This document shows positions 1,506-57,277 of a stretch of 64,000 nucleotides of DNA, piece after piece. The DNA lies in the NCBI GenBank assembly GCA_035235625.1, contig CP141146.1, positions 23,306,501 to 23,370,500 of the forward strand, written 5' to 3'. The notes beneath the pieces are model-generated. The model ran no database searches and was not told the origin of the DNA. It saw only the letters and a program-made list of their open reading frames with translations. Both the position numbers and the translations under genes were made by a program. Within the stretch, counting starts at the first letter, position 1. Each line of letters opens with the position of its first letter. This DNA is from Saururus chinensis. Lineage: Eukaryota; Streptophyta; Magnoliopsida; Piperales; Saururaceae.

Positions 1506-1739
1506 AGTGGGCATTTGCACGCTCAGGTAAGCAGTGTCATGGACCTGCTCTTACCTGTTTGATCCTGTGCCCCATGAGTATAGGTGTGCCTTGCCTTCGG
1601 AAAAGTCCAGGCGTCTAGTTGCTCTCCTAAGGTTAAGGTGACGCCCTTGTGGCATTCCCTTCTTTTTCGACGTTGGAGCTTGTTAATTGTAATGAGCTTC
1701 ATTTGTCGGTAGTATGTGTTCGATAGTGAGAGTATGTTG

Positions 1740-2085
1740 TATGCTTCAGATTCTGAGTAAGTTGTACGTGTAAGATCCAGAGTAGGTGTAAGTGTAAGCT
1801 CCTAAGAAAGACGTATGAATATGTTTATGTGTAAGCGTAAGATTGTATAATTAAGGTCGTACAAGTATGTATAGGTTGTGCAAGTATGAGTATGAGTATG
1901 AGTACGATTGTAAGATGATGGTTCTGAGTAAAAATGTAAGTGTAAGTTTCTGAGTAAGATCGTAAGTGTAAGATTCTGAGCACGTTTGTATGTATATGAT
2001 TTTGATAAGGACTGTAAGTGTAAGATTGTACGAATAAGGTCGTACAAGTATACATAAGGATTTGAGTATGTGTACAATGGTACAA
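1740..2085. repeat. Degenerate GTAAGTGTAAGATT repeat tract
   Basis: Repeated short units of the type GTAAGTGTAAGATTNTGAG and GGTCGTACAAGTAT, seen several times with substitutions. It is simple-sequence drift inside the LTR; the minus-strand frames across it are products of the repeat, not genes. Confidence 0.5.
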
Positions 2086-4193: not shown

Positions 4194-4342
4194 GGTAAGT
4201 ATTTTTAAATCACTATTATTATTTGTTTGTTTGCTATATTATCAATGTGTAGTAAATTTTTAGTGGTTTTAAGTGTAGGGACAATGAAGTTCCAACAAGA
4301 GCACATGGAACAATGTCATTCATAAATAACAAAGATAGTGGT

Positions 4343-4373
<31 letters not shown>

Positions 4374-4502
4374 GGTTGGAAGCACTCTAGCATCAGAGCC
4401 ACTTCAAAGGTCATATCATATCTTATGTAGTCAGTTAACTGATTATATCAAACTGATAACTATTTATCTCATTCTAATACCGACATACATATAATCGTTC
4501 AG
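4194..4502 (+). other. Probable intron of mudrA-like gene
   Basis: Starts at a strong donor, GGG|GTAAGT, and ends at a pyrimidine-poor TTCAG acceptor, just before the DNA-binding domain coding sequence. AT-rich, with no coding features. Confidence 0.55.
4339..4375. repeat. (GT)n followed by a 19-G run
   Basis: About nine GT dinucleotides and then an unbroken run of 19 G (4357-4375), inside the transposase intron. Long G homopolymers are rare in plant DNA; an assembly artefact is possible. Confidence 0.9.
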
Positions 4503-6531: not shown

Positions 6532-7300
6532 TGAACAATCTTAGTGGACAAAGTCTCAGTGCACAATATTTTGGCAAATCATCTAGAAATTCCAGGTGCA
6601 GAACCTTCAATTCTCAACCTTTTTTTGTTGTCTAAGTTGTTATATTTTGACAAATTATTATTCAACACAAAAAGTACTGCACGTAGAGGAAGAGTCTAAT
6701 ACTGCAATGTTGTGTAATTATGCAAGCAAGTAGTACACACTTCTAATATGAATGTACTTAACAACCCTATGCAGACGAAATCATATATCATATGCAAGTC
6801 AAGACATGCCTGAATTGAATTCCATTCCCAAATGAATTTCATAGTTCAGTTGTTTGTTATCTTAATGCACCTGTTTGTTTGCTATATTATCAATGACATA
6901 CCAGTAACTGCTCAACGTACTCCATTCCTTCATATGCTTCATTTCTTCCAAATCTTACCAATCAGCAACAATATCTCAAACCTATCATACCACCAAATAG
7001 CTTAATGACACCTGCCCATTATGATCTACCATTTGCAACCACCTTATCAGAATAATTTCAGTCATAGATAATGTTCATATCTCATCATTCAACATCACCC
7101 AAAAACCAACACAGTCCATTAAATTAATGTAGTCAAGTACCAACACAAATAACTACAAGATTCTGTCTAACATTAAACAAACTGATATGGCTCCATACAC
7201 TATTCCTATAAACCAACAGTCAAACATACACCAAATCATATAGTCAACGACCAACACCATCAAGTTAAGCCACCTCTACAACACATTGGGAAAATGGTCG
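6532..7300. other. Spacer between convergent MULE genes
   Basis: AT-rich DNA between the 3' ends of the transposase and Ulp1 genes. I see no coding motif, only short A/T runs; it presumably holds both 3' UTRs. Confidence 0.5.
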
Positions 7301-10300: not shown

Positions 10301-10650
10301 ATGGTAGCACATCAGCCATATGCAGACCGGTCACTTGGGCAAATTCTGTGGGTGACAACTTCATCAAATAGGCTTCCGTCACTTGAAACCTATACTCTCC
10401 CTGATACATTTTTATTAAGTGGTGCAAGTCTTGAAGTGGGAACATGAACTTCTCTATGTCTAACTGCAAATATTTTCCAAAACATGATCCTTCAAAGAGT
10501 TTGGCCTGTCGTCTAAGCTTATTAAAATGCACTTTCAGCCTCCTTAAGTAAGCATAGGTGCTTTTGGGTTGAGGGTTGCCCTCATGGGCTCTACCCTTAT
10601 CACTTTCCACTGCCTTGAAGATCACTGAGGCATTACTTGGTATCTTCACC

Positions 10651-12696
10651 CTGCAATATTTAAAATTTCCATATTAAAAATGTGTTTTACTTTATAATAA
10701 CCATCCATGCAAATATAGGGTTATATACATAACAATGTAAGCTAAGCCCCAAACACACATTATACATTTGACAACATGAAAGCCACACACTCCTATTACT
10801 CTACACATATATAGACTTACATATAGCAAGTCAAAAGCCTGTACAATATGCTTTATGCAAATAAATAAAAGATAATTCAAATGTATCAGTCAACAGTTAG
10901 GGCCTATCAGTTAAATTTGTTTTAGGCATATCTGCATCCTTATATGGTCTACCCTTGTTTTCATCATAACACATATTACAGAGAATGATAAAATGATTAA
11001 TAATTTACAAATGTAGCCTAGCACCTACATTTCGACCTTGAAATAATTTTGTCCTATTCTTTTGCATTCCTTATAAGTCAAACAATGTAAGCTAAGCCCC
11101 AAACACACATTATACATTTGACAACATAAAAACCCCATACTCCTATTACTCTACACATATATAGACCTACCTATAGCAAGTCAAAAGCCTGTACAATATA
11201 CTTTATGCAAAAAAATAAAAGATAACTCAAATGTATCAGTCAACAGTTAGGGCCTATCAGTTAAATTTGTTTTAGGCATATCTACTTCCTTAGATGGTCT
11301 ACCCTTGTTTTCATCATAAATAATTTACAAATGTAGCCTAGCACCTACATTTCGACCCTCATAAAAAATTTTCCATTGGTTTTGCATTCGATAAAATTTA
11401 TCTATATAAGCTAAGCCCCAAACACACATTATACAGTTGACAACATGAAAGCCCCACACTCCTATTACTCTACCCATCTATATACCTAACTATATCAAGT
11501 CAAAAGCCTACACAATATACTTTGCAAAAAAATAATAGCTATCTAATATATACCAATCAACAGTTAGGACATATCCGTTCACTGTGTTATCACAGAGAAA
11601 GGTAAAAAAAGCCACTATTGAGTAATAATTTACAGATGTAGCCTTGCACCTACATGATGACCCTAAAAAAATTTTGTCCATTGGTTTTGCATTCGATAAA
11701 ATTTTTCAATGTAAGCTAAGCCCCAAACACACATTATACATTTGACAACATGAAAGCCCCACACTCCTATTACTCTACACATATATAGACCTACCTATAG
11801 TAAGTCAAAAGCCTGTATAATATACTTTATGCAAAAAAATAAAAGATAACTCAAATGTATCTGTCAACAGTTAGGGCCTATCAGTTAAATTTGTTTTAGT
11901 CATATATACTTGCTTAAATGGTATACCCTTGTTTTTTTTATCATATCACATTTCACATAGAATGGTCAAGAATAGCCACTAACGATCATTATTATCCAGA
12001 CTTAGCCTAGCAACTAAATTTCTATCATCAAAGAGTTTTGTGAATTCTTCTATGGTTCTTCAAAGCCATGACCGCAAACTAAGCATTAAACACACAATCT
12101 ACTTTTTACGAGATCAATCTACCCTTATATATATAAGACTATATAAAGTTTACTGATCATACAATTTACTTTAAAGACCAACCTATAATGTACTAGTCAA
12201 TAGTTAGGCCATATCAGTTAAATTCATCTGTAGCATACAATATTGCTTCTATGGTCTCCCCCTTGTTATTCATCATATCTCATATAACAGAGCACAGGTC
12301 CAACTTAACTAATCAGCTATATTTTTCTTCCTTTTTCTACGAACAATTTTTTTTTCATCTGAGATTTCCTTTTCAAAATTTTTCATGAGATCACATCCTT
12401 CAAATGTTTAAATCAACTATATCTTACGATATCAAATACACTAATCATAGTAGTACATGCGGCCATTTTACACACCTATTCAGAATTTTCTCCTTTAACT
12501 TCCATTAAGATCTACCAAAAATTTCATTACACAATCTCAATAAATTTCATACCAAACCATATTATCCACCTCAAGAAGATATTCGTAACCAAACCATTTT
12601 AGACACCAAAACATGCTATTCGTAACCAAACCATATTAAACACCAAAACAAGATATTCGTTTCTTCAATTAACCATACAGCGTTGTAGGATCTTAC
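10651..12696 (-). other. First intron of the DUF1985/Ulp1 gene
   Basis: Bounded on the minus strand by donor AAG|GTAAGA at 12696 and acceptor AATATTGCAG at 10651. The split codon restores an open frame on joining. About 2.05 kb, mostly filled by a tandem repeat. Confidence 0.65.
10733..12330. repeat. Tandem repeat, five ~300-360 bp units
   Basis: Each unit starts CAATGTAAGCTAAGCCCC or a variant and includes ACACACATTATAC, CTCCTATTACTCTAC and CAACAGTTAGG blocks. Units start near 10733, 11083, 11401, 11707 and 12066. The first four are highly alike; the fifth is strongly diverged. No protein coding is visible. The array lies wholly within the Ulp1 gene's first intron. Confidence 0.85.
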
Positions 12697-17639: not shown

Positions 17640-20600
17640 CATTGTCATCATCGATAAAATCATCTGCATTGGGATCTGGGAGTCGATGCATTTGTGGGTC
17701 AGCATCAACAAAGGTCCCATCAACCCCATCTCTTGCCCAAGCAATTGAATTGTCGTCTTCTTCGGTATCGAGTTCATGTGTCTTTATTGTTAAAACACTG
17801 TCACCAATTTCACAGCCTCATATTTTTTCTTTTTATTTATCAATCACAACCAATGAAAAGATTCTCCATGTGCTAGCCTTGGGTTAGTTAACCAGCTGTC
17901 CCTTTGCATACCAGATTTGACCAATATATCTCCGGAATTATGAATTTTGTCCTGACATAGTGAATGTATCCACGGAAGTCTTCTTTTTAATGCCACTAGA
18001 ATTGTTTCAATCCGAATTATACATAGAAAGATATGGTCGAAATACTAAGGCTGTGTCAATATGTCCAAATCAGCTTCTTCCCGAATTTAGTTATCTTAAT
18101 GCAAATATGAAATCCAACTGGCTTACAAGGTTGTGTTCGACCATTCCATGCATGTTTAGACCATTAGGAGCCCATTATTTACTCTTAGATAGTGTTAGGT
18201 AGTTAGACTTCACTTTCTCTTCTACTTGGATACTGTTGAAGCCTGTTTAGACACGTAAACATAACTAAGGTCCAACTCACCTATTCAAATATAAATAGCC
18301 CAAACAAGTATTGAATTAATACAAAATATGACTGTAATTCAATATTTTAAAGCATTTAATTGAACATTATTTTAGTTCATCACAAACACATCAAATTGAT
18401 CCATAGGTTTGGTCTTCACCACAATGTTCCACGTAGGTTGGAGGGGATCTTCTACATACAACACTTGTTTAGCTTGGGATGCCATCACATGTGGATCATG
18501 ACTCAGTCATTATTGAACAAGAGCCTCATGAAGTTCACAAGAGTGAACCCAAGCTCGTTAATCTTGAGACCTCTTCCTTGCGCAACGTCTACCTAATCAC
18601 ACTTAAACAAGACGAACTTGTATGTAGGAGAATATGAGACCTTGATTATATCAATTAACTGACCAGAATAGGTTAAAACATGTGTTATTGGTGTCACGGC
18701 CCGGATTTTTAAACGCATTTTTAAATAGCACGAATGGTAAGTAGCTAGAATTTTTTTTTCTTTCTTAAATATAAAACAAACCTTTCGATTAAATATCCAG
18801 GTCATGATAACTCGGGTTCATAAATATGGATATCAAATCATATGATATTATTTAATGTCTGAATATTCATAAAGAATAGCTCATTCATCTAAGTACAAGT
18901 CCGTCATCCATCTAAAAATAAATAACAAGTTGACTCTCACGCTAAAGGTACACTTAAGTACCAGAGTTGTAGACACAAAGAAACTTTATCCTATACGCAT
19001 CAATCTTAGTCTCACTCGTTGTCACCTAAAAAACCTACAACAAAGCAAACCAAACAACAACCACAACCACAATTAAGCATCTCCACCTTCAAGAGAAGAG
19101 CTTCCAAAGGACAAAAGATTTTATTAATATTTTTTGGATTGGGCCAACATCACCCGATGTTAGTTGCCTATGTACTTATCAAACAACATCTCCAATATTT
19201 CCAACAAGATCGGATAGACGTAGTTCTGTCAAGAAACTACTCTATCCTAAGATGAATTGCAATGCTTAGGTATTTTTAACCAACTTACATTTTAGTAAGT
19301 CCTTTATTCGTTCCACTTGTCTAATTAACAAGCAATATTAAACAATGTTATTAATTTTCTCACATCCCTTGTTCGATAATTAATACTATCAAATCTATAA
19401 CTCGGAGATGACTTGCCCCTCGAGAAATCTGCAAACAAAAGACTCCAACCTTGGAGTAGACTGCTTAATAGCAGCTTGACCCAAATCCCCAGGGCTCTCA
19501 ATTGCCTGCTACAAATCTGGAGAAGAGGATCCCAACTATGCTCATGGACACAGATTGACAAGGAGTATAAGCCTTCCATGATGCTCATACAACTCTGCTT
19601 TTCGTACATACTAAATAGCCCTGGGAAGACCTGTGGGAGACCTGCGGTAAAGACCCTCTGGTCAATACCCAAACCGTCGTGGCGATGGAGAAGCATATTG
19701 CATTCTCCACCATCCCAACTCTGGGAGAAAATGTCTTATAAGACATTACTAATGTATCCGTGGAAGCCTCAAGTCCTTATTACCATTGACTCCCCCAAAC
19801 ATCTAAAACTTAGACTAGATTATTTCCATCCAGTCAAGTAACCGCTCAACCATTTGGGTCCTTTTCACTTTGTGAATCGGTCCAAATAAATAGCTCATCC
19901 ATTGAACTATGACTCCGAGAACATCCCGTAACCACCCTTGGTTCATTAACCAAGATAAAATTCTATGTCAGGGCCCCATTCACTCCATGAACCGGTCCCA
20001 AACCCTATTGAGGGTATTTTAGTCATTATCTTAATTTAGGTGTTCTCCCCCCAATCCAACGACAACCAAAATCTCTTGATTAGTCTTTATTAACCTTAAG
20101 TTACTGATATAACTTAATGCATCAATAACAAAATCATGTAGCAAATTAAGCAACGTAAATAACATGCAGACATACAAGTGCATAAATAACAAACAAAGGC
20201 CTATTGCACTCATTTGCAGGGCTAGGGCTTAACTAGTTCAAGCCCAAGAGTGTAAACAACTCTAATGCATCCCGCGTTTTACATATATAACACTCTAGTC
20301 GATCGATGTACTCGATTGTAGACACGTGTAATATGCTACATTAAACCTTGAGAATTAGGGTTCTTCCCCTTGCTTCCCATGACACTGTGACCTGTTAAGG
20401 TCTTCGTGTCTCTTTTTGGTCACACCCTGTCCTTTTGAAGTCACTTAACATCACTATAGCATACCATAATGCTTGGTAGTCAGGTTATTAGTTTCGGCAA
20501 ACAGAGTACAATGCCCCTAAGGGCATTAGGGTAATTTTACCACCTAGGGTATGTTACCCTCCCTCGGGTCATTCTAGTCATTACACTACCTTTTTATGTA

Positions 20601-23600
20601 TTTTAAGTCATAATCCTCTCAGGAGGCTCCACTCTCAAACTGACCCGCACTTCCATTCACACGAATGTGGGCGGATCCACTCAAAGGGGTATTTCTGTCA
20701 TTTGGTTTGAGGCCTTAATGACATCAAATAAGTCCAAAATTCAACTCAAGGGTACTACTAGCCTTCATGGAATCTATGTAATTTTCCTGGCATGTGACGG
20801 GGTCGTGAACCCCTTGAACCGATCCAGGTTATCTTTATGATTTTTTATTAACCCTAGGGGCAAAATGGTCAATTACCTATTCACTGGGATTTTTCCTCAC
20901 CAAAAGGTTTATCTTATAATTAGGTTACCTATTAAACTCTCACTGAGAATTTTCCTAATTTTGCCATCAACTCATAGGCCCCTGAACCAGAGCTTCGAAC
21001 TCGGGTAAGTTAATATTATAGGGTAATTAACTAATAGGGGTAAAAAGGTTATTTTATAGTCCCTTGAATATTTCCCGGGCTTGAAACTCAGTCAGAATAA
21101 TCCCACACCTCTCCTGGTTTATGAGTAATTTTCTAGGATTTGTTTGACATATTTATCCCCCTGAACTGGACTTGGTTCACATCCTTCATTTATTTCTCTT
21201 TTAATAAAAAAAAAAAACCGGACCGGTTTGAATCGGGTCGACAACCTGCAAAGCGGGTTGTCTTCCCCGCGTTCGGCCAGAGGCGAAAATGCCTCTAGCG
21301 GCACCACCCCTGGCCGCCACGGTGGGGTGGCGGGCTGGGCTGCACAGGATCGCCGCCAAGCGGCGATTCCGTTGAGCCGGGGGCCGCTGCCTCTCAGTGG
21401 CCGGCAGTGGGCCAATCGGCCACCCCTTTTTTCAAAAAAAAAACCCGGCGATGGTGATGCAATGGAAGCCGCCACGGCCAGCCAATAGGCCGGGCTTGAT
21501 CTAATTGCCATCTTCCGGCTGTTCCTTTTGCCCTGGTCCATCTTCCGGCCGGCGGCTGCGTCCTGCCGCCACAAGTTCCATTTTTTTTTCTCTGTAACGA
21601 ATTGGCGGTCTGCACAGTGGCAGCCAAAACTGCTGCCGCCAAGGCCGTCGGTGCCATGGCCAATGCGGCTGAAGCCAGTACAGCCCTTGCCCTCCGACAG
21701 GTCCGGCCAAAATTTAATTTACTGTTCATATGAATAATATTTTGCATAAATCACTATTTTTGCAGAAATCACTATTATTTTCATTCAAATCAGTTAATAA
21801 AATCCATAATAATCGCAACTTGAAATCCTACCTCCATGACTGAGTTGACGTCGATCCACCGCTGTTGAAGCTTTACCGTAAAATTCCCTCAGCCGCTCCT
21901 CCTCCTTCTCTCTGTTGTCCCCCTAAAAAGCCCTAATTAATTCTTTTTATAGGCATGGGATTAGGGCTCCTAATCCCATGAGAAATTTCGCCAAAACTCC
22001 CCCAATTAGGCCACTTAAATTATAATTTCGGAATGCTAAATAATCGGGCCCACAAAATGACTTAAACGGCCCAGTTGCATGTTTAAATTGGGTAAAAGGG
22101 CCCTATACAATGTGTTCAACTTTGCATAATTGTATCTCTCTTATCTGGACTCCGATTCACGCATTGTTTGTGGCATTTTGAAGCTCTTTCTGTCTATTAT
22201 CCATCCATATAGGATTCAGCCACCAATTCTAACTGATGATAAAATTATTCTCATGAGAAGATCAAGGGGTCCCATACCCTAATTTTCCCGTGGAAGACTT
22301 CGGGAATTTAGAAAATTCCCGGATGTTACAATTGGTCTTCTATCACATGGACTTGCATAACTATTAGTTTCTGCAATGACAGAAAATGCCATTGTTCTTA
22401 GTTTTCTCATGCATGCATGTCCTTCTCCCATTTTCAAAACTTATAGCCATTGATCGTGTAGGTACTTAGTTTATTAACACACAGACATGGGCCATCAGAT
22501 AGCACTTGGATGCCTTCAAATAATTGCTATCTTGCAGATCTTAATTCATGTATCTAAATGTTAAAATAATAAAAATTAGAAATTGGGGCCCATTCATTTG
22601 AACTATTAAGATGTTATCATTCCTAAATTGAAAGATACTTACATGCGCTTTGAGCCAGGAGGGAAAATCCTTGTGAATTTTTTGAAATTCATGAGGTCAT
22701 GTTCTCCGTGGTTTGGTTGCTCAAAGGTATATAAAGTGTTTACTACATGCACATAAAACTATTAATTTAACCTATTCAAAAAATTTTCAAGTGTTGCATA
22801 TTTACATTCTGAAGTCTTCACAAACTTACTCTATGTATGATTGTACTAAGTCATGGTTCATTATGATATATCGATGTGCCTGCTTCACTCAACCTCACTC
22901 AACTTGTAGTGTGTGGCATCCTTCAAAACATGGGTCTCGGGATTTCTCAATTGTTAGTTAAAGCTTGTATCTACAACTTCCTTCAAGTACCTTGAACAAA
23001 ATGTGAGGCATTCACCTGCAATATACTCTTCTGCTATAGAAGCTCCTGGATACACTTTATTCTGCACATACGATTTAAGTGTTGCAAGGTATCTACATAC
23101 AAATAACAATTATTAATATCACTCCTCAAGTATGACATATAAAATTAATTTAGTTGTAATGCCTACCTTTCAATGGGGTACATCCATTAGTAATATTGTA
23201 CAGGTCCACCAAGCAAAGCCTCTAATGCCAAGTGCATAGGGAGATGAACCATTACATCAAAAAATGATGGAGGGAAGATGCATTCTAACTGATATAGAAC
23301 AAGAGGAATTTACTTATCCAATCTTTGTAAGTCTTCCTACTCTACTGACTTTGGAACATAGTTCCTTGAAGAATGCACTCAGCTCTGTTAATGGGACAGA
23401 GACATTCTTTGGTAGGATCCCACGTACAGCTAGGGGCAAATATTATTATAATATGACATATGTATCGTGGCTCTTCAAACTTGACAGTTTACGATTTGTG
23501 GCATCGACACGTCTTGAGATGTTGGAAGTGTAACCATCAGGTGTCTTTAAAGTCTTAATGATCTTGCAAAATGTTTCCTTCTCAGTACTCAATGAATAAC

Positions 23601-25473
23601 AAGCACTTGGTAAATATGCCCGATTTCTATTTTCCTCCCATACTGGGTGAAGTTCTTGCCTAACATCCATATTTTTCAAGTCTAGGTACGCATTCAAACC
23701 ATCTTTACTTTTCTTATCAATATCGAACAATTTCCCAAGAATGTTGTCGAACACATTTTTCTCTATGTGCATGACATCCAGATTGTTCCTCAAAAGATTG
23801 GTCTTCTAATATGGAAACTCAAAGAATATACTCTTATTTTTCCAATTATATGGGAATACATTTGCATCCTTGCCTTTGGCCTTGCTTCTTTTCCTTGTTT
23901 TTACACCATTTGGTTCCTTCACAAAATACTTTTTAGTGTCTTTTAGCTCATCTATTATATTTGCCCCTAACATTGGAATAGGTGTTGTTCTCTCCTCTAT
24001 AGTCCCGTTAAAAAGTTGTTTTTGCTCTCAAAACTTACAGTTAGCAAGCAAGAATCTTCGACGACCCATGAAACATGTTTTACAACTGTTTGACAACCTT
24101 TTCCAACATGTGTGTTTATGGCATGATGAACAAGCCAACTTGCCATATGTGCTCCATCCAAACAACATATCATATCTTGGAAAATTTGCAATGGTCCATA
24201 AAAGAGCTACTTGCATTTGGAAACTTTGATTCTTTGATGCATGCCATGTAGTTACCCCATAATTCCACAATTCATTCAACTCATTTATAAGAGGTTGCAG
24301 GTAAACATCAATATCAGTTGACGGGCTCTTCAGACCTGGTATGAGGAGGGACAAGATCATATTTGTTTTCTTCATGTATATCCATGGAGGAAGATTGTAT
24401 GGAATGAGTACTACAGGCCATGTGCTATGGGCTGAAGAACATATTTGTCCTAGAAGGGTTGAAGCCATCACTAGCCAATCCTAGACGTACATTATGAGAC
24501 TTTGTACCAAACTGGCAATGCATAGTATCCAAATGTTTCCTGGCAAGTGCATCTGTAGGGTGTTCATAGCATACCATCCTGAGTGCATTGTTCATCATGC
24601 CAACTCATGTCCTCTGTAGTCTTCGAAGACATATACAACCGCTACAATCACGATATAATTGGAAATTGTCTCAAAATCTTCATTATTGTCTTTTTCTTCC
24701 TCGCACATGATTGTTTATCAGTCTCTTTCCATCTCAATGCATGACATCTATTACATTCATCCTTATTAGCAGTTTCCTTCCAATAAAACATGCAATCATT
24801 AGGACAAGCATTGATTTTGTTATAGCCTAGACCCATCATTGTAACTATTTTCTTAGCTTCAGCAAATGTACTAGGAAGAATTGCTTCCTTGTGTAGTACT
24901 TCCCTTTGCAATTCAATTAAACCGCTAAATGACTTGTTGCTAGCTCCAAGAGCCAGCGCATTTCAAGTGCCACAATCTAACAACAAATGACAATGTAGTG
25001 TGTGATGTACACCATGGGAATAAATCATTCCCATAATAAACTGCTAGCTTGTAGAACTTATCGGCGTTGTCGTGTCATACATTTACTTCACTAGTTTGAC
25101 CATCATTAAATATCCCCACACTTGAAATCCCATGCAAAACATTTAACAAACCGAGCATATTGTTTGTCCATTCATCTTCCTCATCCACTACATTAGTTTC
25201 AATAGGTGGAACACTTGCAGAACTTGCATAATGGTCCATATCCTCCCCATGAAGAGTCCAAACAAATTAACTTTTTACCATCCCACGGCATATGAGATGG
25301 TCAAATAGCCCATTTGGATCTTGATGATGCACACTTAGACAATCAATGCATGGACACCCATATTTTACATGATTTGGGGACACTCTACTAACTACTTACT
25401 CAATGAACCCTTTTACACCTTCAATGTATTCGCGAGACACTCTATTTGAGAGTTTAACCCAACCCTTATCCAT
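17640..25473 (-). pseudogene. TNP2-like: TNP2-type CACTA transposase, broken and split by an LTR
   Basis: Start ATG at 25473 opens a transposase-associated domain (MDKGWVKLSNRVSREYIEG, then CPCIDC) with in-frame TAA near 25400. Transposase_21 follows: 24911-24648 (GLGYNKINACPNDC), 24471-24028 (WPVVLIPYNLPPW, GWSTYGKLACSSC), 23793-23446 (NLDVMHIEKNVFDNI, then PDGYTSNISR). DUF4218 lies at about 23260-22970 (FFDVMVHLPMHLALEALLGG, then SIAEEYIAGECLTFCSRYL). The motif KIHKDFPSWLKAHV is at about 22690-22640. After the solo LTR the DUF4216 part continues at 18686-18593 (KFVLFKCD), near 17900 (QIWYAKGQL) and at 17790-17640 (AWARDGVDGT). Multiple stops and shifts make it non-functional. The enzyme would cut CACTA ends. 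Partial intron structure between domains cannot be resolved by eye. Confidence 0.88.
18692..22330 (-). mobile_element. Solo LTR, Tekay/Del-like, TSD ATTGG
   Basis: On the minus strand it runs TGTAACATCCGGGAATTTTC to ...AAAAATCCGGGCCGTGACA, typical Tekay/Del LTR ends. It is flanked by a perfect 5-bp duplication ATTGG (18687-18691 and 22331-22335). No gag-pol, primer binding site or polypurine tract is seen over 3,639 bp, so it is a solo LTR left by recombination. A GC-rich block at about 21200-21700 gives overlapping frames on both strands (e.g. 21119-21574, 21228-21488) that are compositional. It interrupts the DUF4216 part of TNP2. Confidence 0.9.
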
Positions 25474-26327
25474 AATTGCACAATTCAATAATAGGATATA
25501 AAAATTCATACGAAATAAGTAAAAATGAGACAAATACAATTTACTCAATCTAGTAAGAATGCTTCAGTATACAGCTAGTCAAAAAGCTTCAAAATCCTCA
25601 ATCCAAATGTATCAAAAGCTTGAGTTTTAACATTATACAGTCAAGATTACATCTTTATAAACAACCAACAAAATTTTGCAACCATTAAAAATTGGTGTAC
25701 AACTAAACTATCAAATCCCCTACCTTTTAATGGGAAAGAAGAAGACCGCAAGAAATGATGGTGCCCAATGAGACTAGAAGAAGGAAATAAATAACTTCAT
25801 AAAATATAAAATAAACTAGAGCACAACAAACTAAAAGTGCTAATAGCAATTAACAACAACTACAAAGGAAAAGGTTATGCTTTAAACCAAATCAAATAGA
25901 AAACGATCAAAAGATGATGATCAAAGTAGATAAACTAACCTCTTTCTGTTAGCCAAATGAAAATTTCAGGAAAAACCGAAAATGGATATATAACTTGTCC
26001 AGCGTAGCCTCCTTCACCTTGCAGAAAGTTGTGCAGATTTTTTAGGTCAAAGAGCTGGGACGAAGCTTAACTTCTGACTCAAGAAGAGTAGCATAGAAAG
26101 TTGGGTTTCGCTTTCAGTCCTAAAATGGATAAAACTCCTTATGGGCCCTTGTGATGCAGATGCGAGAAGGGGGTACATAAGGCAGAATCAAATGGAGTTG
26201 GAGAAACAGCTGCATTGAATGCCACCACTATACACCACCCTCTTTGGCTAAGTGAAGATTGCACGAGGGACTCAGGCAGTCGACGGAGATGGCGATCAAC
26301 AATGACGAGGAACCCAAAGGCAGGGGG
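25474..26327. other. 5' flank of TNP2 within the CACTA element
   Basis: No coding motif recognised. It probably holds the 5' UTR or introns and promoter of the minus-strand transposase gene. Confidence 0.4.
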
Positions 26328-26600
26328 TAGTGTTACTGCTGCGTCGGGTTTTGCCCAACCCGAACTGGATAGTACTTTAGAAAACTGTAACTTGAACCCG
26401 ACCTGAATGGAATAAAAATATATATTTTTATTTTTTTAAAATAATATTAAAAAATACATAATATTCGGTTCGGGTCAGGTTGGATTACCTAAAACCCGAA
26501 CCCAACATGAATAGCTATTCGGGTCAATTTTCAAAACCAAACCCACCCCATTAGGGTTGGGTCGGGTTTTACCATTTACCCGACCCGAGTGACATCCCTA
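26328..26600. mobile_element. Short hAT-like non-autonomous element
   Basis: 273 bp starting TAGTGTTACTG and ending TGACATCCCTA, with CGGGTCGGGTT-type subterminal repeats in inverted orientation at the two ends. It is flanked by 8-bp near-duplicates GCAGGGGG (26320-26327) and GTAGGGGG (26601-26608). This matches the TAGGGNTGTCA ends and 8-bp TSDs of Ac/Tip100-like hAT elements. It lies in the 5' flank of the TNP2 gene. Confidence 0.7.
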
Positions 26601-26869
26601 GTAGGGGGAGAAGGAGGGAGAATATGAGGGGTGGGGATTGGGAAGGGGGAGGGGGAGGGGGTTTTCGCAGATAAGAGGGGAAATGGGGGAGATAAAACCG
26701 CGATTGGCCGAAACTGTGGCAAGGGCAAAATCACAGCCGGATGAGAGGGAAAATGTTAGAGAGGGTGGATATGTATAGTCAACTGCAATGGCTAAGAACG
26801 TTGTCACCATTATTAAGTATATGCAATGAGAGCAATCATCACTGTTTATGCAGACAAATTGCGATGGCA

Positions 26870-27252
26870 ATTAAGAGCCGTCGTTGATACCAACTAATTG
26901 CAACACAAATAACTCAATACGAGCTGAAATAAGCTCATCTTCAATGGTGACCGATTCCTGTCACATATAACCCAACTATAGGGATGATTATAATCTTTAG
27001 TCATTGCTAATTAATTGTAATTAATGACGGTTAAGAAGATCTGTCACTGTATCTTCAACACAAGCCATGCTAATAATTGAAAATATGCTGAAATAAGCTC
27101 ATCTGCAATGGTAATCTGTACCCGTTGCAAAACACAATCAATAGCGACGATTTTTTAGTTGTCGCTGATACTCATTGTTAGTGATGGCTTCGTTAGGCGT
27201 CACTATTGATGCGTCACTATTGATGCGTCGCTATTAATGAATTTTTTTGTAG
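26870..27252 (-). repeat. CACTA subterminal repeat region and terminus
   Basis: Contains two copies of GAAATAAGCTCATCT (near 26930 and 27090) and several GCGACG / CGTCACTATTGATG units close to the end at about 27252. Such short inverted motifs bind TNPA-like proteins in characterised En/Spm elements. The last base of the terminus appears changed (TAGTA for TAGTG). Confidence 0.55.
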
Positions 27253-44334: not shown

Positions 44335-47300
44335 AACCGCAGCGTTTGCTACTGCATCTCAATTGCCTACATGCTTCACATTTTCGTGGGCCTTTGACCT
44401 TGGGTTGTGTCTCTATTCATTTTTTCCTTGGATGCCCCTCTGTTTGAGTGGGAGTTGTGGGCTGAATGTAGGCAAAACTCTAGTCGGTCCCCACTTGTGC
44501 TAATCTGTCATTGGGACTAATGGCTCTCGATATGTCATTTGATATGTGTATGCAGAGAACCATTTTTTATAGTACTCTAACGTATGAAAGTGTCTATGAT
44601 CAAGTTGTAATTGTTTGTTAACATGATAGCCCCATATGCTGAAACTTTCGCATGTGCAACTACAATTTACCAGATTTACTATATCCGTTGAAGGAATATC
44701 ATGATAATGAAACATTATAGTGTTATTGAAAACATGATAGATCATGTTATTTTAACGTAATGAAAAATATTTAGTCGTGTTTTCAAAGACACAAAAATGG
44801 AAATGGTGTGATGACAATTACACGCTTTTGTGGATAATGTATGAACAAACACATGACATTATTTACATTTTACTTGGTGGTATAGCTAGATAATATGGAA
44901 TTCATCCTTTGATACTGACAATACATAAACATGCCATACTTCTTCTATTTTTCCATCGATTTGTTTAGGAGCAAATGGGGTTAACTTGTCAGTCACATTT
45001 TGGACATCTATTCGACGTTTCTCAAATAGTGAGGTTGTGTGTTCCCTTATATGCTCAATTAAACAAATAATAGCCATCACCCTAGCTGTTTTGAACATTG
45101 CAATCACACTTTTAGACCTATTTGAGCTGAGTGTTCCATATCTTTTGCCATAAAATGAAACATTGGCTCAGTGCTTTGCACCTATCTTCTTCAATAAAGC
45201 AAATGACTCAGGATTATGTTCTTAAATGTTGTTCAATGTGTCCTCTCACACGTTTTATCTAAAAGTTTAAGCGGCCACATGGAGCTTGTTTTTTAGGAAG
45301 TTTATTTTGTTAGGAAGTTTATTTTAAAAATGTCCAACATTTTTGGTGCCATGTGATGGATGCAATATCTGTGGTATATAGAGGGAAAAAGTTGATTCAT
45401 AACATTTGCGAAGCTCTTCATTCTATCAGAAACAATTGTGTCCAATTTAGCTGGAGGATAAAATATTAGATAATTTCTAAGCAATTGAAAAAACCAACTC
45501 CAAGTTTTCTCCCACTCATTCTTGATGACTGCAATGCGACACAAAGCATATCATTATTCCCGTTTAGTGCAGTTGCTATCAATAGCTGATCGGGATACTT
45601 TTCCTTCAAGAAAGTCACATCTATGGTTAGCAATGTTCTCAGTGTTATTCTAAAAGCTATTGCAATGGGCCCAAACATCCAAAATACTCTTTTAAAATCA
45701 TAGCCCCCTATAGGTTTAGGAATATCTCATGATATGACAAGAACTACTACACTGTTGGAATTAATCCTTTCTATCTGAATTACGTATGCAACAAGTATGT
45801 GATAGGATTTGTCTGAGTTCCCATTGATTAAATCACACAATGAATTACATACCCAATAAGATTTGATGTAGTCAACATTGAAACTACTTACACAACAAGT
45901 TAACAAGTTGTGTTCTTGATAACTTAAAAAGATAACTAGTAGTGTTTTTGAAAAAACTCGACTTTGTATGCATCGTGTTCCTAGTAAGATGATAAGTTAA
46001 CAAGTAATGTTTTGAAAAAATTTGACTTTATAAGCTTCGTGTTCATGATAACGCATCATGTTAACAAGTCATATTTTTGTAGACACGACTATGTAAACAT
46101 TATATACTTTATGATGATGTGCCTTACCTACATGCCAACATTTCTTGTAGTTCATAGTTATACCACAATGCTTCTAAATATATGTGGCTATACTTTTGGT
46201 TTAATGTTTATGGAATATTTAAAGATTCCATAACATTTTCTTGCAATCCAATAGTGAGATGCTAAAGGGTGGTGAGTTGCCTTCCTTAGTGTTCCACACA
46301 CATGGCCAGGCACTAACCTTGTCACTATCACATTATCTCCTATGTTAGATGCACTTATGTACCACTTGTAAGACAGGTCGGAGCACTTTGCGGCATATAT
46401 ATTCTTGTTCTCATCCACAACCCAATATGTGAAATTTTCCTTTATTACAAAGTCGATAAAGATCCTCATGAAATGTACCAGGCTTTCGAAACGTGCACCG
46501 AATTGGAGTGGATTCTGGTAATCCTTTGCTTGCAAACTATTAGTCATTATCTCACTCTCACTAGTATTTGGTTCCAACAAGTTGAGATCATCGACTATCA
46601 CCCACTCTACCTACGCCTCAACTTCAATATTATTGGGTACCTCATTGTGTCTGAATTTTACACGGTCAAACATACTTTTCATGTCAATTCTGTCATTCTC
46701 GTTCCATTGCTCATCAGCCCACAGTTCTTCAAATTCTTGCCTGTTGGCATTTTCAAGGCTGTATGGGGGATCATAGTTATCAAATGTAATCCCTAACTCA
46801 CCGATTATTGGCAACATTTCTTCAAATCCAGTGTGAATGACTTTTGTAATAGAATATTGCATGATGTGTGGTAAAGATTTGTTGAGTTGAACTCTCATGG
46901 TTCACCCAAATCTAGATTGCATATTAACATGTTAATAAATATATGATATCACTCGACATCATGTATTTGGTAAGACACTTACAAATTTTATCGTGTCATC
47001 GTCAGGACGATATTCATATAAGTCATGTTATTATCTTTACGCTAACACGAATATGTGAGATATTACTTTTGTGTTTCACAAATTAGTTATGTGATTTTAT
47101 TAATATTATTGTATTTTTTAGAATATGATAAAGTATAACATCATGTAATCTACAATTCATTGTTACCTGAGTGTTTCATAAGTGAATTATGTATCATTGA
47201 CTCCCTTCTGCAATAAGCCATTCAAGATGAGGTAAGCTAATACCACAAGTGATTTATCTATATTCACTTTCTGATTCCTTTCCACTGGTGATTTGTCTTC

Positions 47301-50002: not shown

Positions 50003-50439
50003 GAGCAAGTATGGTCATGTTTCTCAATGAACTCATTCACTAAGTAATTGAAGGAATTAGTGGTTTTTGACTATATTTCCTATTAATATCGTGGAAAAAG
50101 TTCTTCATTAATTTAGGTTAGGCTTTGAATTTATGCAAAATACTTTGGTATATCATACCAATATGAGTTTTTATATTTGAAATTAAGATCTTTTAGTCAA
50201 GTGGCTAAGGAGATTATGTTATGCTCAGTATGAGTCACACTAGTTGTGTAATTTTAACACTAGATGATTGTGTTACTTCATGATCATGCTATATGGTATT
50301 CATACAATTGTTTTATTCTTACTTTTCATAACTTATTAAGTCTTAATGTGGTTAACTAGTTTAGTATTTTCTCTAATATTTGTTGTTCATCTGCCTTTTT
50401 TTATTTTACCGTTGTCTACTCACGACAAAAAGGGGGAGA
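50003..50439 (+). other. SIRE-like 3' internal region with polypurine tract
   Basis: Non-coding AT-rich DNA ending CTACTCACGACAAAAAGGGGGAGA. The ACAAAAAGGGGGAGA string is the typical polypurine tract (plus-strand primer) of SIRE-type copia elements, so the parent element lay on +. The CACTA element is inserted exactly at its 3' edge, and a similar sequence with a second GATGGGGGAGA resumes at 56956. Confidence 0.55.
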
Positions 50440-50454
50440 CACTACAACAAAAAA

Positions 50455-51030
50455 ACTATTAGCGACGCATTTATGCGTCGCTAATAGTCCCCTAAGCGTC
50501 GCTAATGCATATTAGCGACATATAATACATGTCGCTAAAAACGTCAAAAAAAGTCCCGTCGCTACTAACAATTAACGACGTATACAAACAACGTCGCTAT
50601 TAATGCATATTAGCGACATATACTATACGTCGCTAATAATATATTATTAGCGACGTATATGCTTTAGCATCGCTAACGATAACCTATTAGCGATGATTGT
50701 TTTACGTCGCTAAAAGATATGCAATTTTTGAAAAAAATTTAAAATAATAAATTATTAGCGATGTATACTTAAGCGTCGCTAATAAGGGCTTATTAGTGAC
50801 GCTTAAGTCTACGTCGCTAATAGGGAAAATAATTTTAAAAAAATTAAAAAACAACTTAATAGTGACGTACAGTGAAAGCGTCACTAATAATTTATTAGCG
50901 ACGCTTTCCATACGTCGCTAAAAAGATAAAAAAAAGTTAAAAAATTTCAAAATTAAATTAAATTTATAACATTAATTAAATTAAAAGTAAAAATAGTGAC
51001 GCTTTTTAAGCATCGCTAATATTACATTTT
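50455..51030. repeat. Left subterminal hairpin array (AGCGACG units)
   Basis: About ten inverted pairs such as TTAGCGACGCAT / ATGCGTCGCTAA with 2-20 bp loops, spaced 40-90 bp. They are analogous to TNPA-binding subterminal repeats of En/Spm-type elements, but are themselves palindromic. Confidence 0.85.
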
Positions 51031-51044
51031 ATTTTTAAAAAAAA

Positions 51045-52140
51045 TCCCCGATGGGTTTGGCCCACCGGGGAAGGAAGAGTTGCCGGAGGACGGAATCCGA
51101 AGCCCCGGCTCCGCCCCCCTCCTCTAAAAAATCAAGAGGGGGGGCGGGGGCGTCTATGTGAGGGCGGGGCGCTGGGGGAGGGGAACACCGGGGAGCATGG
51201 GGGCACTGGGCGAGGGGCGGCTGGGGGAGAGCGGGGCTGCTGGAGTGGGGGTAGCTGAGGAAGGGAGGGCCAGCTAGGGGTGGGTGGGCTGCTTGGAGAG
51301 GGGGGAGGGGGTGCCCACCGGGGAGCCGGGCCAGCTGGGGAGGGGGGGCTGCTGAGGGAGCAGGGGAGGCCGCTGGGTGAGGGGGCCAGCACTGGGGCGG
51401 CGAGGCAGCGAGGAGGCCATGAGGTGGGCGGCCGGACGGCGAGGCGGCGAGGAGCCGGGCAAAGGGCTGGCTGGGGGAGGGGTGGCCACTGGGGAGCAGG
51501 GCCGGACCGGCTGGGCGAGGGGGGCTGTTGAGGGAGCAGGGGGCCGCTGGGGAGGGGGCCAACATTGGGGCGGGGGAAGGAGCAAGGCGGCGAGGAGGCC
51601 ATGAGGTGGGCGGCCGGACGGCGAGGCGGCGAGGAGCCGGGCGAGGGGCCGACTGGGGAGGGGTGGCCATTGGGGGAGCAGGGCCGGACCGGCCGGGGAG
51701 GGGGTTGTTGAGGGAGCAGGGGTTGCCGGGGGGAGGGGGCCAACATTGGGGCGGGGGAGGAGCAAGGCGGCGAGGGGCCGGCTGGGGGAGGGGTGGCCAC
51801 TGGGGAGTAGGGCCGGACCGGCTGGGGAGGGGGGCTGCTGAGGGTGCAGTGGGGGCCGTTGGGGGAGGGGGCCAGCACCGGGACGGGCGGAGGAGCAGGG
51901 CGGCGAGATGGCGAGGAGGTGGGCGGCCAGAATGCGAGGAGCCGGGCGAGGGGCCGGCTGGTTGAGGGGGGCCAGCACTGGGGAAGAGGGTGGGAGGACA
52001 GCGAGAAGGTGGGAGGGTGGAGATATAAAAGGCGCGGGCAAAATTTAACTGCGCGGGGAATTTCGCCCGCGCGCGAAATTGAACCGCGTGGCAAAATTTT
52101 GCCCGTGCGCAAATTTACCCCACGCGGGCGGAATTTCTCC
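51045..52140. repeat. G-rich minisatellite
   Basis: Imperfect tandem blocks around GGGAGGGGTGGCCACTGGGG (starting near 51475, 51655 and 51784) and ATGAGGTGGGCGGCCGGACG (51419 and 51601). The + strand has many runs of three or more G. Periods are about 130-180 bp. Confidence 0.75.
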
Positions 52141-52374
52141 AAAAATATTTTTTAAAAAAAAAAAATTTTAGCGACGCTCATAAGGAGCGTCGCTGCTAAT
52201 ATTGTAAATAGCGACGTTTGGATAAGAGGGTCGCAAAACCATACACTATTAGCGACGCTCTGCAACAAGCGTCGCAAGAAACTTTAAGTTTTTTTTAAAC
52301 AAATGACTTATTAGCGACGCTTGCAGTATGCGTCGCTAATAGTTAAAATATGCGACGCTCCAAGTTCAATTTTT

Positions 52375-53145
52375 TACCTCTCTCTTCTCTCTCCTCTCCT
52401 CTCTCTCTCTCTCTCTCTCGCCTCTCTCTCCACCCTTTCACTCTCCCTCTCTCCTTTCTCTCCTCTCTCTCTCTCTCCTCTCTCTCTCCCTCTCTCTCTC
52501 CTTTCTCTCCTCTCTCTCCTCCCTTTCTCTCTCCCTCTCTCTCTCTCCCTCTCTCTCCTCTCCTCTCTCTCTTGCCTCTCTCTCCACCCATTCTCTCTCC
52601 TCTCCCTCTCTACACCATCTCTCTCTCCACCCTCTCTCTCCCTCTCTCCTTCCTCTCCCTCTCTCCTCTCCTATCTCTCTCCTCGCCTCTCTCACCCTTT
52701 CTCCTCCCTCTTCCCTCTCTGCCTCTCCACCCTCTCTCTCTCTCCTTCCTCTCTCTCCTCTCTCTTATCTCTCTCTCCTCCCTCTCCCCTCTCTCTCTCC
52801 ACCCTCTCTCTCCCTCTCCTTCCTCTCTCTCCTCTCTCTCATCTCTCTCTCCTCCCTCTCCTCTCTCTCTCCCCTCCCCTCTCCTCTTCTCTCTCCTCCC
52901 CTCTCCTCTTCTCTCTCCTCCCTCTCCTCTTCTCTCTCCTCCCTCACCTATCTTTCCCTTCCTCTCCTCTCTCTCTCTCTCCCTCTCCTCTCTCTCTCCC
53001 CTCTCCTCTCTCTTCCCTCCCCTCTCTCTCTTCCCTCCCGTCTCTCTCTCTCTCCCCCTCTCTCTCTCCTCCCTCTTTCTCTCCTCCCTCTCTCTCTCCA
53101 CCCTTTCTCTCTCTTCCCTCCCCTCTCTCTGCTCTAATTTCAAAA
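52375..53145. repeat. Long (CT)-rich polypyrimidine tract
   Basis: About 770 bp almost wholly C and T on +, in CTCTCTCC / CCCTCTC variants. Frames on both strands are artefacts. Confidence 0.95.
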
Positions 53146-53189
53146 AATTTTAAGATTTTTATTTTTTTATATTAATTTAAAAAATAAAA

Positions 53190-55700
53190 AAATTTATTAC
53201 TGATAGCGACGTTAGTAGTATACGTCGCTATTAGTACCTCTATTAGCGACGTATATAATTATACATCGCTAATACATGTATTAATAGCGACGTATAAGCC
53301 TATACGTCGCTAATAGTATTGTATTTTAAATTATTTTTTTAAAAAATTTTTAAATAAAAAATTTTAAAAATTTTGAAAAAAACATCAAAATAAAATCCCT
53401 CTCTCTCTTCCCTCACCCTTTTCTCTATCCACCCTTCTCCCTCTCTCTCTCCTCCCACTTTCTCTCCTCCCCTTCACCACCCTTTCTCTCTCTTACCTCC
53501 CCTCTCTCTCCTTTAATTTAAAAAATAAAAAAATTAATAAAAATTTTAAAAAAACAAAATAAAATTCTCTCACCCTCCCTCTCTTCCCTCCCCTCTCCTC
53601 TCTCTCTCTCCCTCTCCCTCTTTCTCTCCCTCTCCCTCTCCTCCCTTTCCCTCTCTCTGTCTCTATCTCCCTCTCCTCTTTCCCTCTCTCTCTCCCTCTC
53701 TCTCTTCCCTCCCCCTCTCTCCTCTAATTTCAAAAATTTTTAAGATTTTTATTTTTTTGAATTAATTTAAAAATTAAAAAAATTTAGTACTGATAGCGAC
53801 GTATAGTAGTATACATCGCTATTAGTACCTCTATTAGCGACGTATATAATTATACGTCACTAATACATGTATTAATAGCGACGTATAAGCCTATATGTCG
53901 TTAATAGTATTTTATTTTAAATTATTTTTTTAAAAATTTTTTAAATAAAAAATTTTAAAAATTTCGAAAAAAACATCAAAATAAAATCCCTCTCTCTCTT
54001 CCCTTCTCCCTCTCTCTATCCTCCCTTCTCCCTCTCTCTCTCCTCCCACTTTCTCTCCTCCCTCTCTCCACCCTTTCTCTCTCTCTTACCTCCCCTCTCT
54101 CTCCTTTAATTTAAAAAATAAAAAAATTAATAAAAATTTTAAAAAAACAAAATATAATTCTCTCACCCTCCCTCTCTTCCCTCCCCTCTCATCTCTCTCT
54201 CCCTCTCCCTCTTTCTCTCCCTCTCCCCTCTCCTCTCTCTCCCTCTCCTCTCTTTCCCTCTCTCTCTCTCTGTCTCTATCTCCCTCTCCTCTTTCCCTCT
54301 CTCTCTCTGTCTCTCTCTCTCCCTCTCCTCTCTTTCTCTCCCTCTCTCTCCCTGCCCTCTCCTCTCTACTCTAATTTTAATTTTTTATAATTTTTTATTT
54401 TTTAAAAATTAATTTTAAAAAACAAAAAATCAAATAAATACTAATAGCGACGTATTAGTATATACGTCGCTATTAGTACTAGTATTAGCGACGCATAAGC
54501 ATATACGTCGCAAATACATGTACTAATAGCGACGTATATACTAAGACGTCGCTATTAGTATTTTATTTTAATTATTTTTTTATTTTAAAAAATAAAAAAA
54601 TTAATAAAAAATTTTAAAATATCAAAATAAAATCCCTCTCACCCTCCCTCTCTTCCCTCCCCTATCCCCTCTCTCTCTCCCCTCTCCTCTCTGTCCCTCT
54701 CCCTCCCTCTCCCCTCTCCCTCTCTCCCCCCTCTTTCTCTCTCCCTCTCCTCTCTTTCCCTTTCTCTCCTCTCTTTCCCTCCCACCTCTCTCTCTCCCCT
54801 CTCCTCTTTACTCTAATTTCATTTTTTTATATTTTTCTATATTTTAAAAAATTAATTTTGAATATAAAAAAATAAAATAAAATAAATATTAATAGTGATG
54901 TATAGGAATATACGTCGCTATTATGACTCGTATTAGCAACATATAGGCCTATACATCGCTATTAGTATTTTATTTTTATTATTTTTTTATTTTAAAAAAA
55001 ATTAATAAAAAATTTTAAAAAGTTTAAATAAAATTCTCTCACCCTCCCTCTCTTCCCTCCCGTATCCCCTCTCCTCTCTCTCTCTCTCCCTCTCCCCTCT
55101 CCTCTCTCTCCCTCTCTCTTTCCCTCTCTCTCTGTCTCACTCTCACCCTCTCCTCTCTTTCCCTCTCCCCTCTCCCCTCTCCTCTCTCACCCTCTCCTCT
55201 CTTACCCTCTCTCTCTCCCTCTCCTCTCTTTCCCTCTCTCTCCTCTCTTTCCCTCCCTCTCTCTGCCCTCTCCTCTCTACTCTAATTTAATTTTTTTTAT
55301 TTTTAAAAATTAATTTTGAAAATATAAAATAAAATCAAATAAATACTAATAGCGACGTATTGGAATATACGTCACTATTAGTATTTTATTATTATTATTT
55401 TTTATTTTAAAAAATATAAAAAATTAATAAAAAAATTTTAAAAATCAAAATAAAATTATCTCACCCTCTCTCTCTTCCCTCCCCTCTCCTCTCTCTCCCC
55501 TCTCCTCTTTCTCCCTCTCCTCTCTTTCCCTCTCTCTTGATCTCCTCTTTCTCCTCTCGATCTCTCTCTCTCCCCTCTCTCCACTCTTCCTCTCTCCTCC
55601 CTCCTTTTCTCTCTCTCTCCTCACCCTCTCTGTCCTCCATATCACTCTTCCCTTTCTCTCTCTCTTCGATCCCTCTCTTCTTTCTCTAATTTGTTATAAA
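53190..55700. repeat. Higher-order tandem array of hairpin + AT + CT cassettes
   Basis: Units begin with three (later two or one) AGCGACGTAT...ATACGTCGCTA hairpins, then ~100 bp of A/T-rich DNA, then one or two CT-rich blocks. Unit starts are near 53190, 53784, 54431, 54885 and 55341, so lengths are about 594, 647, 454 and 456 bp. The first two units are nearly identical over the hairpin part (both contain TTAGTACCTCTATTAGCGAC). Confidence 0.8.
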
Positions 55701-56290
55701 TTATATTTTAAAAATAATAAGAAAATTTAAGAAATAAAATATATTATATCTAAATAATGAAAGTTTAATTTATTATTAACACTACTTTTTATTAAAAAAT
55801 TAATATTTATTTATTATATATACATATAGTAAATATTGAATAAAATATATATTATATTTTTATATTTTTTAAAAATTATTTATTAAATAAAATTAATTAA
55901 TAAATCTATTTGCGATGCTTATAATTAACCGTTGCTATTCTCTCCTCTCTCTCTCCCTTCTATCTCTCTTCCCTCCCCTCTATCTCTCTCTCCTCCCTCT
56001 CCCCTCCCCTCTCTCTCTTCTCTCTCTTCCCTCTCCTCTCTCTTTCCCTCTCCTCTCTCTCTCTTCTCTCTCTTTCTTCCCTCCCCTCTCCCTCCTCTCT
56101 CTCTCTCTATCTTCCCTCTCCTCTCTCTCTCTCTCTCCTCTCTCTCTCTTCCCTCCCCTCTCCTCTTTGTCTCTCTTCCTTCCCCTCTCCTCTCTCTCTC
56201 TTCCCTCCCGTCTCTCCTATCTACCTACACACTATCTCTCCTCTAATTTCAAATTTTAAATATTTTTTATTCTTTAAAATTAATTTTAAA
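55700..56290. repeat. AT-rich spacer and further CT tract
   Basis: About 200 bp of A/T-only-like DNA, a single GCGATGCTT...CGTTGCTA hairpin near 55910, then a CT-rich tract 55935-56240. Confidence 0.7.
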
Positions 56291-56309
56291 TTTTTAAAAA
56301 ATATTTAAA

Positions 56310-56955
56310 TAAATATACTAATAGTGACATATACATGTATACGTCGCTATTACTACTTTATTTTAATTTTAAAAAATAAAAAAATTTAATTTTTTTTAAA
56401 ATTAAAATAATTTTTTAATAAAAATAGGTATTAGCGACGCATGTAACTATGCGTTGCTACTAACAGGTGTAATAGCGACGCATAGTTCAATACGTCGCTA
56501 ATACTATCCAGTAATAGCGACGCATAAACATGCGTCGCTATTAGCTCTTAATTTTTATTTTTTTATTTAAAATTGGAAATTATTAACGACGTTTGTTTAT
56601 AAACGTCACTATAGTTTTAACTATTAGCAACGTTTGAAAAAATATGTCGTTAATGGTTTTAATTTTTTTTTTTAAATTAATAGATATACCTTTTAGGGAC
56701 GCTTATATAAGCGTCGCTAATAACCTAAGTATTAGCGACACATATTTGTAAGTGTCGCTAAAAGGATAGGTAGTAGCAACGTTTGTACTTATGCGTCGCA
56801 AATAGACTATACCATTAGCGACGCTTAAGATTATGCATCACTAATAGTAGTTTTTTTTGCGACATTTTGTTATATGTCGTTATTATCACTTTGTAGCGAC
56901 GCATATTATTGCGACGCTTATATAAGCATCGCTAATACCCAATTTTGTTGTAGTG
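56310..56955. repeat. Right subterminal hairpin array and TIR
   Basis: About ten further AGCGACG/CGTCGCT inverted pairs with varying loops, ending in the terminal ATTTTGTTGTAGTG. It is the mirror of the left array. Confidence 0.85.
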
Positions 56956-57277
56956 AGAGATAAAGTGAAGATGGGGGAGACGATATGTGAGTTATGTGTT
57001 TATTGGGGTAATTTACCTTGTCACATATACTTGAACATTTAAATTATGTATTTTTTTATTTTGGATAGTACTATGTGGGTATGGTCTTATTATGTGGTGT
57101 GTAAGTTGAGTACAGACTTAAGATCACACTACGTTAGGATTTTATAGTTTTTAAGGGATACAATAATTTTCAAGTTGGAAAATATGTCATAGTATGATTT
57201 ATGCAGTATAGACTTATAATTTTCTTTTTTGGATTGAAGACTTGTAGTGTTTTATCATGACATAGCCAAAGGGGAGA
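56956..57277 (+). other. Copia 3' internal end with second polypurine tract
   Basis: After the TSD, the sequence GATAAAGTGAAGATGGGGGAGA continues non-coding to CATAGCCAAAGGGGAGATTATAAG (57265-57288), a SIRE-like polypurine tract directly before an LTR. Confidence 0.5.

Follow-up and report, generated by a model that had tools for sequence, protein, structure and literature searches.

In the established picture of the CACTA superfamily, subterminal repeats are bound by TNPA-like proteins (PMC2613891, PMC5105172). Here we describe a CACTA element at positions 50440-56955 of a 64,000-nucleotide stretch of Saururus chinensis DNA (contig CP141146.1, positions 23,306,501 to 23,370,500 of the forward strand; hereafter, the window). 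The element probably belongs, as a non-autonomous copy, to a large CACTA (En/Spm, TNP2) family whose palindromes would serve as docking sites for a TNPA-like protein and would have spread inward by duplication of modules. Subterminal sites of CACTA elements have been described as a feature of the ends; here they run through the body in seven complete copies. Subterminal stem-loops, large non-autonomous families and satellite arrays are all known in CACTA elements, whereas palindromes spread bodywide in variable modules are apparently new; in other respects the family is typical of its superfamily. No description of a CACTA family carrying its own subterminal palindromes through the body in variable modules was found in the limited literature collection searched, and a search with the motif strings returned no CACTA element among the matches listed, judged by title.

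Soybean Tgm/Tgmt* resembles the element in having 13-bp CACTA ends, a 3-bp target site duplication (TSD) and a subterminal motif in direct and inverted copies that form stem-loops (PMC2613891). In Tgmt*, 28 subterminal repeats form 14 stem-loops, 2 on the left and 12 on the right, all at the borders, whereas the window's element lacks a gene and has 16 of its 39 units in the interior; Tgmt* also differs in being 20.5 kb long and coding, with the unrelated motif TTGGCAG/AATCTTACAG (PMC2613891). Ipomoea Tpn1 (PMC5105172) and lettuce LsC1 (PMC8195511) resemble the present family in that their copies, hundreds to more than 1,700 in number and for the most part non-autonomous, have common ends, and in both the terminal inverted repeat (TIR) and subterminal repeats are regarded as the requirement in cis. 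Tpn1 differs in having captured host sequence inside and subterminal tandem repeats of 122 and 104 bp, not short palindromes (PMC5105172). Another large non-autonomous CACTA family in print is pvCACTA1. Chenopodium Jozin and other satellite-bearing CACTA elements likewise hold, or have given rise to, tandem arrays; these consist either of a 171-bp satellite that coding elements carry close to their 3′ end or of satellites derived from tnp2 (PMC8978399, PMC7320549), whereas the array unit in the window holds the subterminal palindromes of the element itself. The SIRC cassettes of Arabidopsis are also comparable, as they are composed of short repeats with diverse spacers, some with palindromes (211 of 2,941 cassettes have palindrome arms of 4-9 bp), and are thought to derive from DNA transposons; they differ in being described as having lost their terminal inverted repeats (PMC10342631).

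Maize En/Spm and dSpm share the CACTA ends, the 3-bp TSD and subterminal arrays of binding sites, with a different motif; the roles of TNPA and TNPD are treated in PMC2613891 and PMC5105172. The Spm sites, unlike those of the window's element, are not known to reach further inward than a few hundred bp from either end, and a GC-rich zone inside the 5′ array, in the first exon, resembles the G-rich block described below.

Termini, body and palindromic units

The features of the element are as follows (lines without a strand have none assigned).

50437..50439, left TSD, AGA (direct reading)
50440..50452, + strand, left 13-bp TIR, CACTACAACAAAA (direct reading; the family left terminus is also repeated genome-wide)
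50460..51018, left subterminal array of 11 palindromic AGCGACG units (unit detector)
51015..52139, G-rich block (base composition, tandem repeats)
52169..52338, three interior palindromic units (unit detector)
52370..53134, + strand, longest CT tract
53138..53728, module 1: AT-rich spacer, 3 palindromic units (~41-bp spacing) and CT tracts
53729..54376, module 2, sharing 90.6% identity with module 1 across 608 bp
54377..55690, modules 3-5, similar in make-up but further diverged, with 3, 2 and 1 units
55935..56219, + strand, last CT tract
56322..56919, right subterminal array of 12 palindromic units
56943..56955, - strand, right 13-bp TIR (direct reading)
56956..56958, right TSD, AGA (direct reading)

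The ends begin 5′-CACTA and finish TAGTG, the right end reading TTTTGTTGTAGTG and stopping at 56955. Both 13-bp TIRs, read directly, are intact and AGA stands on either side as the 3-bp TSD, exactly as a first-pass annotation of this DNA had claimed. The subterminal motif occurs in direct and inverted copies at both ends, as in other members of the CACTA superfamily, and the combination of shared ends, multiple copies and no transposase gene is that of a non-autonomous derivative. The same annotation's claim that the body lacks a gene also held: among the 9 open reading frames of at least 100 amino acids, a Pfam scan found no family at E≤0.01, and the same scan recovered Transposase_21 from the window's TNP2 piece (4.3e-55) as a positive control. 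A captured gene in this copy was ruled out by the same scan, and the G-rich block was rejected as coding, since it gave no Pfam match and its open frames are probably due to composition. The string GGGGGAGAC occurs at 50432-50440, reaching one base inside the left edge of the element, and again at 56973-56981, just beyond the right end; the pair may reflect chance or a piece of an older repeat at the insertion site.

Palindromic units were detected as TAGCGACG and CGTCGCTA, with ≤2 mismatches each, facing one another within 20 bases. The element contains 39 such TATTAGCGACG-type units, above the 25-30 first estimated, whereas 50 dinucleotide shuffles averaged 0.08 and never gave more than 1. 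The first 50 kb of the window hold 3 units only, all inside 26979-27205. Exact AGCGACG or CGTCGCT cores number 42 in the element. The palindromes, mostly 24-28 bp long, are built from two facing half-sites with the consensus TATTAGCGACGYWTA, derived from 78 arms. Eleven units fall within 650 bp of the left end, 12 within 650 bp of the right end and 16 in the interior, which bears out the claim that they are not restricted to the ends. When all 39 units were folded with 4-base flanks, the mean energy was -13.3 kcal/mol, compared with -3.2 for mononucleotide shuffles. Single units span -3.6 to -21.7, so that not every one makes a good hairpin. Comparison among the element's units shows covariation at the first inner base pair (0.74 paired against 0.50 shuffled), which we read as two unit classes, both palindromic. 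Centre-to-centre spacing peaks at 38 and 41 bp among 555 units in the element and 20 other loci, with related copies entered separately, and these distances are near four helical turns.

By area, the element consists of units (20%), CT tracts (33%), the G-rich block (17%) and other sequence (30%). The first-pass description of an element made entirely of AGCGACG units and CT/G tracts is therefore too strong. The G-rich block is 73% GC and 52% G over 51041-52140, and carries 182- and 129-bp tandem repeats. Eight G4-type motifs lie on the + strand within it, at 51162-51871. The CT tracts are also tandem-repetitive. Module bounds and the division into five were set by us. Units of module 1 start at 53204, 53244 and 53285, retaining the ~41-bp spacing. 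Elsewhere, among the 20 other loci, the best-scoring matches to modules 1 and 2 reach 72-73% identity (70-77% for the top four), compared with 90.6% between the two modules, so their duplication is young and lineage-specific among the loci seen.

Related copies in the genome

The 48-base left terminus of the family, allowing ≤3 mismatches, was found at 191 places in the genome (100 forward, 91 reverse), and the reversed control at none; genome copies sharing the ends, which the first-pass annotation had proposed to look for, are thus abundant. Searches with the left kilobase and with the right end were evaluated on the 40 candidates scored out of 2,801 and 2,867, respectively. For the left end, 34 of the 39 other scored matches begin no more than 1 bp away from the point where the element begins. 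For the right end, all 39 other scored matches end at query positions 685-694, where 686 is the final base of the element.

The left-end matches supplied twenty loci for closer study. In 8 of them an intact left start is accompanied, within 10 kb, by a family right end, and 6 of these 8 have a perfect 3-bp TSD (ATG twice, TCA, CCT, ATC and GTT), with sizes from 2,502 to 7,982 bp. The six TSD-bearing copies are located on five other chromosomes and the window's own. Among the twelve remaining loci, the CACTAC start is absent in L015, L021 and L026, and nine gave no family right end by the same criterion; L011 and L026 reach the element's last bases in altered form, as seen by BLAST. L018 terminates in an inverted left end rather than the family right end. 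At about 101-7614 of this locus (element orientation), two left ends face one another 7.5 kb apart, and the outer 3-bp flanks, TGT and ACA, are reverse complements of each other with no direct duplication; the arrangement could represent an inverted or composite element, or could be due to chance.

One architecture is common to the seven TSD-bearing copies, the window's included. The left array has 10-12 units and the right array 6-12, and all seven copies carry interior units (7-16 per copy), CT tracts (1-8 per copy) and a G-rich block. Because all seven TSD-bearing copies carry them, the interior units are a trait of the family and not a quirk of one copy. In selected interior stretches of six other loci, frames of at least 70 amino acids were absent from L022 and, judged by eye, low-complexity or non-coding in the rest.

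TNP2 genes and a sister family

A genome search with TNP2 (PF02992) gave 152 matches, from 231 candidates with 150 scored, and eight TNP2 loci (L031-L038) were fetched. The window holds a TNP2 gene of its own, with two relevant features.

23157..25476, - strand, broken TNP2 (Transposase_21) gene, its pieces in several frames (Pfam and tblastn)
26979..27252, - strand, AGCGACG-type subterminal units and an apparent decayed CACTA terminus, TACTACAAAAAAA, of a separate element

The units and the decayed terminus, ending at 27252, sit ~1.8 kb upstream of the broken gene. It is likely, although not proven, that both belong to one element at 18387-27252 on the minus strand, the right end of which was looked for and not found. 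Pieces at 22544-22312 and 18703-18387, which we take to be DUF4216-like, may have been split by a later insertion of about 3.6 kb.

An intact TNP2 frame of 754 amino acids was found in L034, with a right end, TTTTTTTTTGTAGTG, ~6 kb downstream; no left end was found in the 3.8 kb upstream. This right end is preceded by sister AGCGGCG palindromes, TTTTAGCGGCGG and CCGCCGCTAAAA, at 11842-12272 of the joined sequence of L034 and L039 (C6), and the element represents a sister CACTA family. L037 carries the family left end beside a TNP2 gene read toward that end. The stretch adjoining this gene shows, by eye, a GGCGGT/ACCGCC motif, on which ground the gene is assigned to the sister family. In the same locus, a G-rich zone follows the left array.

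The other TNP2 loci have scattered AGCGACG-type half-sites at most (≤1 mismatch; four in L031, two in L032 and three in L033). L033 also has two facing AGCGGCGG-type half-sites close to the edge of the stretch, and for this reason may belong to the sister family. No paired TIR with a TSD was found within 9 kb in L031-L033, which have long TNP2 frames; L032 gave a single partial match to the TIR, unpaired. Closest to the TNP2 of the window are L035, without a half-site, and L036, with one at 1 mismatch; L038 has no AGCGACG half-site. Judged from sequence, the TNP2 genes of this genome appear to be associated with palindromic AGCGRCG-type subterminal arrays, the exact partner being seen only in broken form. 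The parent element with TNP2 and the same motif, which the first-pass annotation had suggested looking for, is matched in part: a broken gene lies near AGCGACG units in the window, and the intact TNP2 element has a sister motif.

Explanations for the interior arrays

We propose that coding relatives would provide TNP2 and a TNPA-like DNA-binding protein in trans, that cleavage at the 13-bp ends would be made by TNP2, and that the palindromes most likely act as paired docking sites of the TNPA-like protein. This proposal draws on knowledge of the superfamily, in which TNPA binds subterminal repeats, and on the TNP2 link in the genome. A module bearing docking sites, composed of a hairpin triplet, an AT spacer and a CT tract, would have duplicated in tandem and so enlarged the interior, and the number of modules would vary between copies for that reason. 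Inner arrays would then be chiefly by-products of duplication and not selected devices. Dense transposase-binding sites are a plausible role for the units, and one that we prefer because TNP2 genes lie near the same or sister units and because stems are better conserved than spacers at non-CpG positions.

The conservation of the units was examined in a left alignment of 18 ends (17 of the 20 loci, namely those starting with CACTACAACA, together with the element itself), the consensus of which has 11 units, and in a right alignment of 11 ends. Non-CpG divergence from the consensus was 2.5% of cells in stems against 9.7% outside them on the left, and 9.2% against 21.3% on the right, a contrast biased upward because units were located by motif and AT-rich spacers align poorly. 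C-to-T or G-to-A change at CpG was 14.3% in stems and 14.5% outside on the left, and 14.6% and 15.0% on the right. Such decay suggests long methylation, and its equality in and outside stems indicates that pairing was not protected from C-to-T change. Compensatory double changes numbered 12 in the left array against 15.2 expected from column shuffles (18 sequences), and 28 in the right array against 13.5 expected (11 sequences), where the shuffles ignore the unequal overall mutation load of copies and 11 of the 28 changes come from the strongly diverged copy L029. The change runs from G-C to A-T in 12 of 12 left and 20 of 28 right cases. Palindromy has been kept. These counts do not establish selection for folding, and those of the right array are evidence that it may exist.

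Several results weigh against docking sites spread by module duplication in a TNP2-mobilized family. Two of the eight two-ended loci, L014 and L028, lack a TSD. No intact autonomous copy with exactly the same ends was present among the eight TNP2 loci, and the motif of L034 is a sister of AGCGACG and not identical to it. A TNPA gene was likewise not identified, no search having been aimed at one. No AGCGACG array was found around six TNP2 genes (L031-L033, L035, L036 and L038; 4.5-9 kb each), and tblastn with intact TNP2 queries gave no TNP2 in the 20 fetched family loci of about 10 kb each. The low divergence of stems is partly circular, the units having been found through their motif, and the right-array excess of compensatory changes also fits selection for pairing.

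The alternative that survives best, and that we regard as quite possible, is that the interior arrays are neutral: hairpin-prone, CT-rich DNA would duplicate by slippage and unequal exchange, leaving the extra units idle. The variation in CT tracts and interior units among the seven copies, the tandem repetition of the tracts and the failure to find the youngest duplication at that identity in the 20 other loci all agree with it; however, interior units retain the core motif and the 41-bp spacing, and each of the seven TSD-bearing copies retains some of them. Neutral growth is compatible with the docking-site proposal, which itself assumes such growth for most of the interior.

It is unlikely, by comparison, that interior hairpins are kept so that transcripts fold into short stems cut to small RNAs that silence the family or host targets. 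Small-RNA production from the units is possible, as they fold well on average on either strand, the right array shows its compensatory excess and the first inner pair covaries. There is also a precedent in wheat, where about half of the small RNAs matching CACTA elements map to the outermost tenth at either end (PMC2996936). The left array, however, has no compensatory excess, all of its changes and most of those on the right follow the direction of C-to-T decay, and CpG decay is equal in stems and outside at both ends. Moreover, the unit stems are roughly 10-15 bp by eye, and the usual plant microRNA hairpins are longer.

An assembly collapse or chimera of the interior, raised as a danger in the first-pass annotation, is extremely improbable: although low-complexity CT tracts are hard to assemble and the tract lengths given here are those of the assembly, the same types of parts recur in the same order in all six further copies with a TSD, which are spread over the window's chromosome and five more.

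We also consider it doubtful that the interior arrays are functional, with copies competing for a limiting TNPA-like protein and inward modules raising mobility, escaping repression or acting as a sponge. If they were, module number would be a selectable and countable dial on transposon activity. The copies form a natural dosage series bearing on how many docking sites a CACTA element needs and on whether additional ones are of benefit or titrate the protein. The family also offers a case for how hairpin-rich repeats grow inside transposons.

Elsewhere in the window, an open reading frame with a DUF1985 domain (PF09331, 4.8e-11) lies at 9933-10649 on the minus strand, and a weak match to a MuDR-type transposase DNA-binding domain, below the cut-off (PF03108, 1.8e-4), lies at 46188-46601 on the minus strand.

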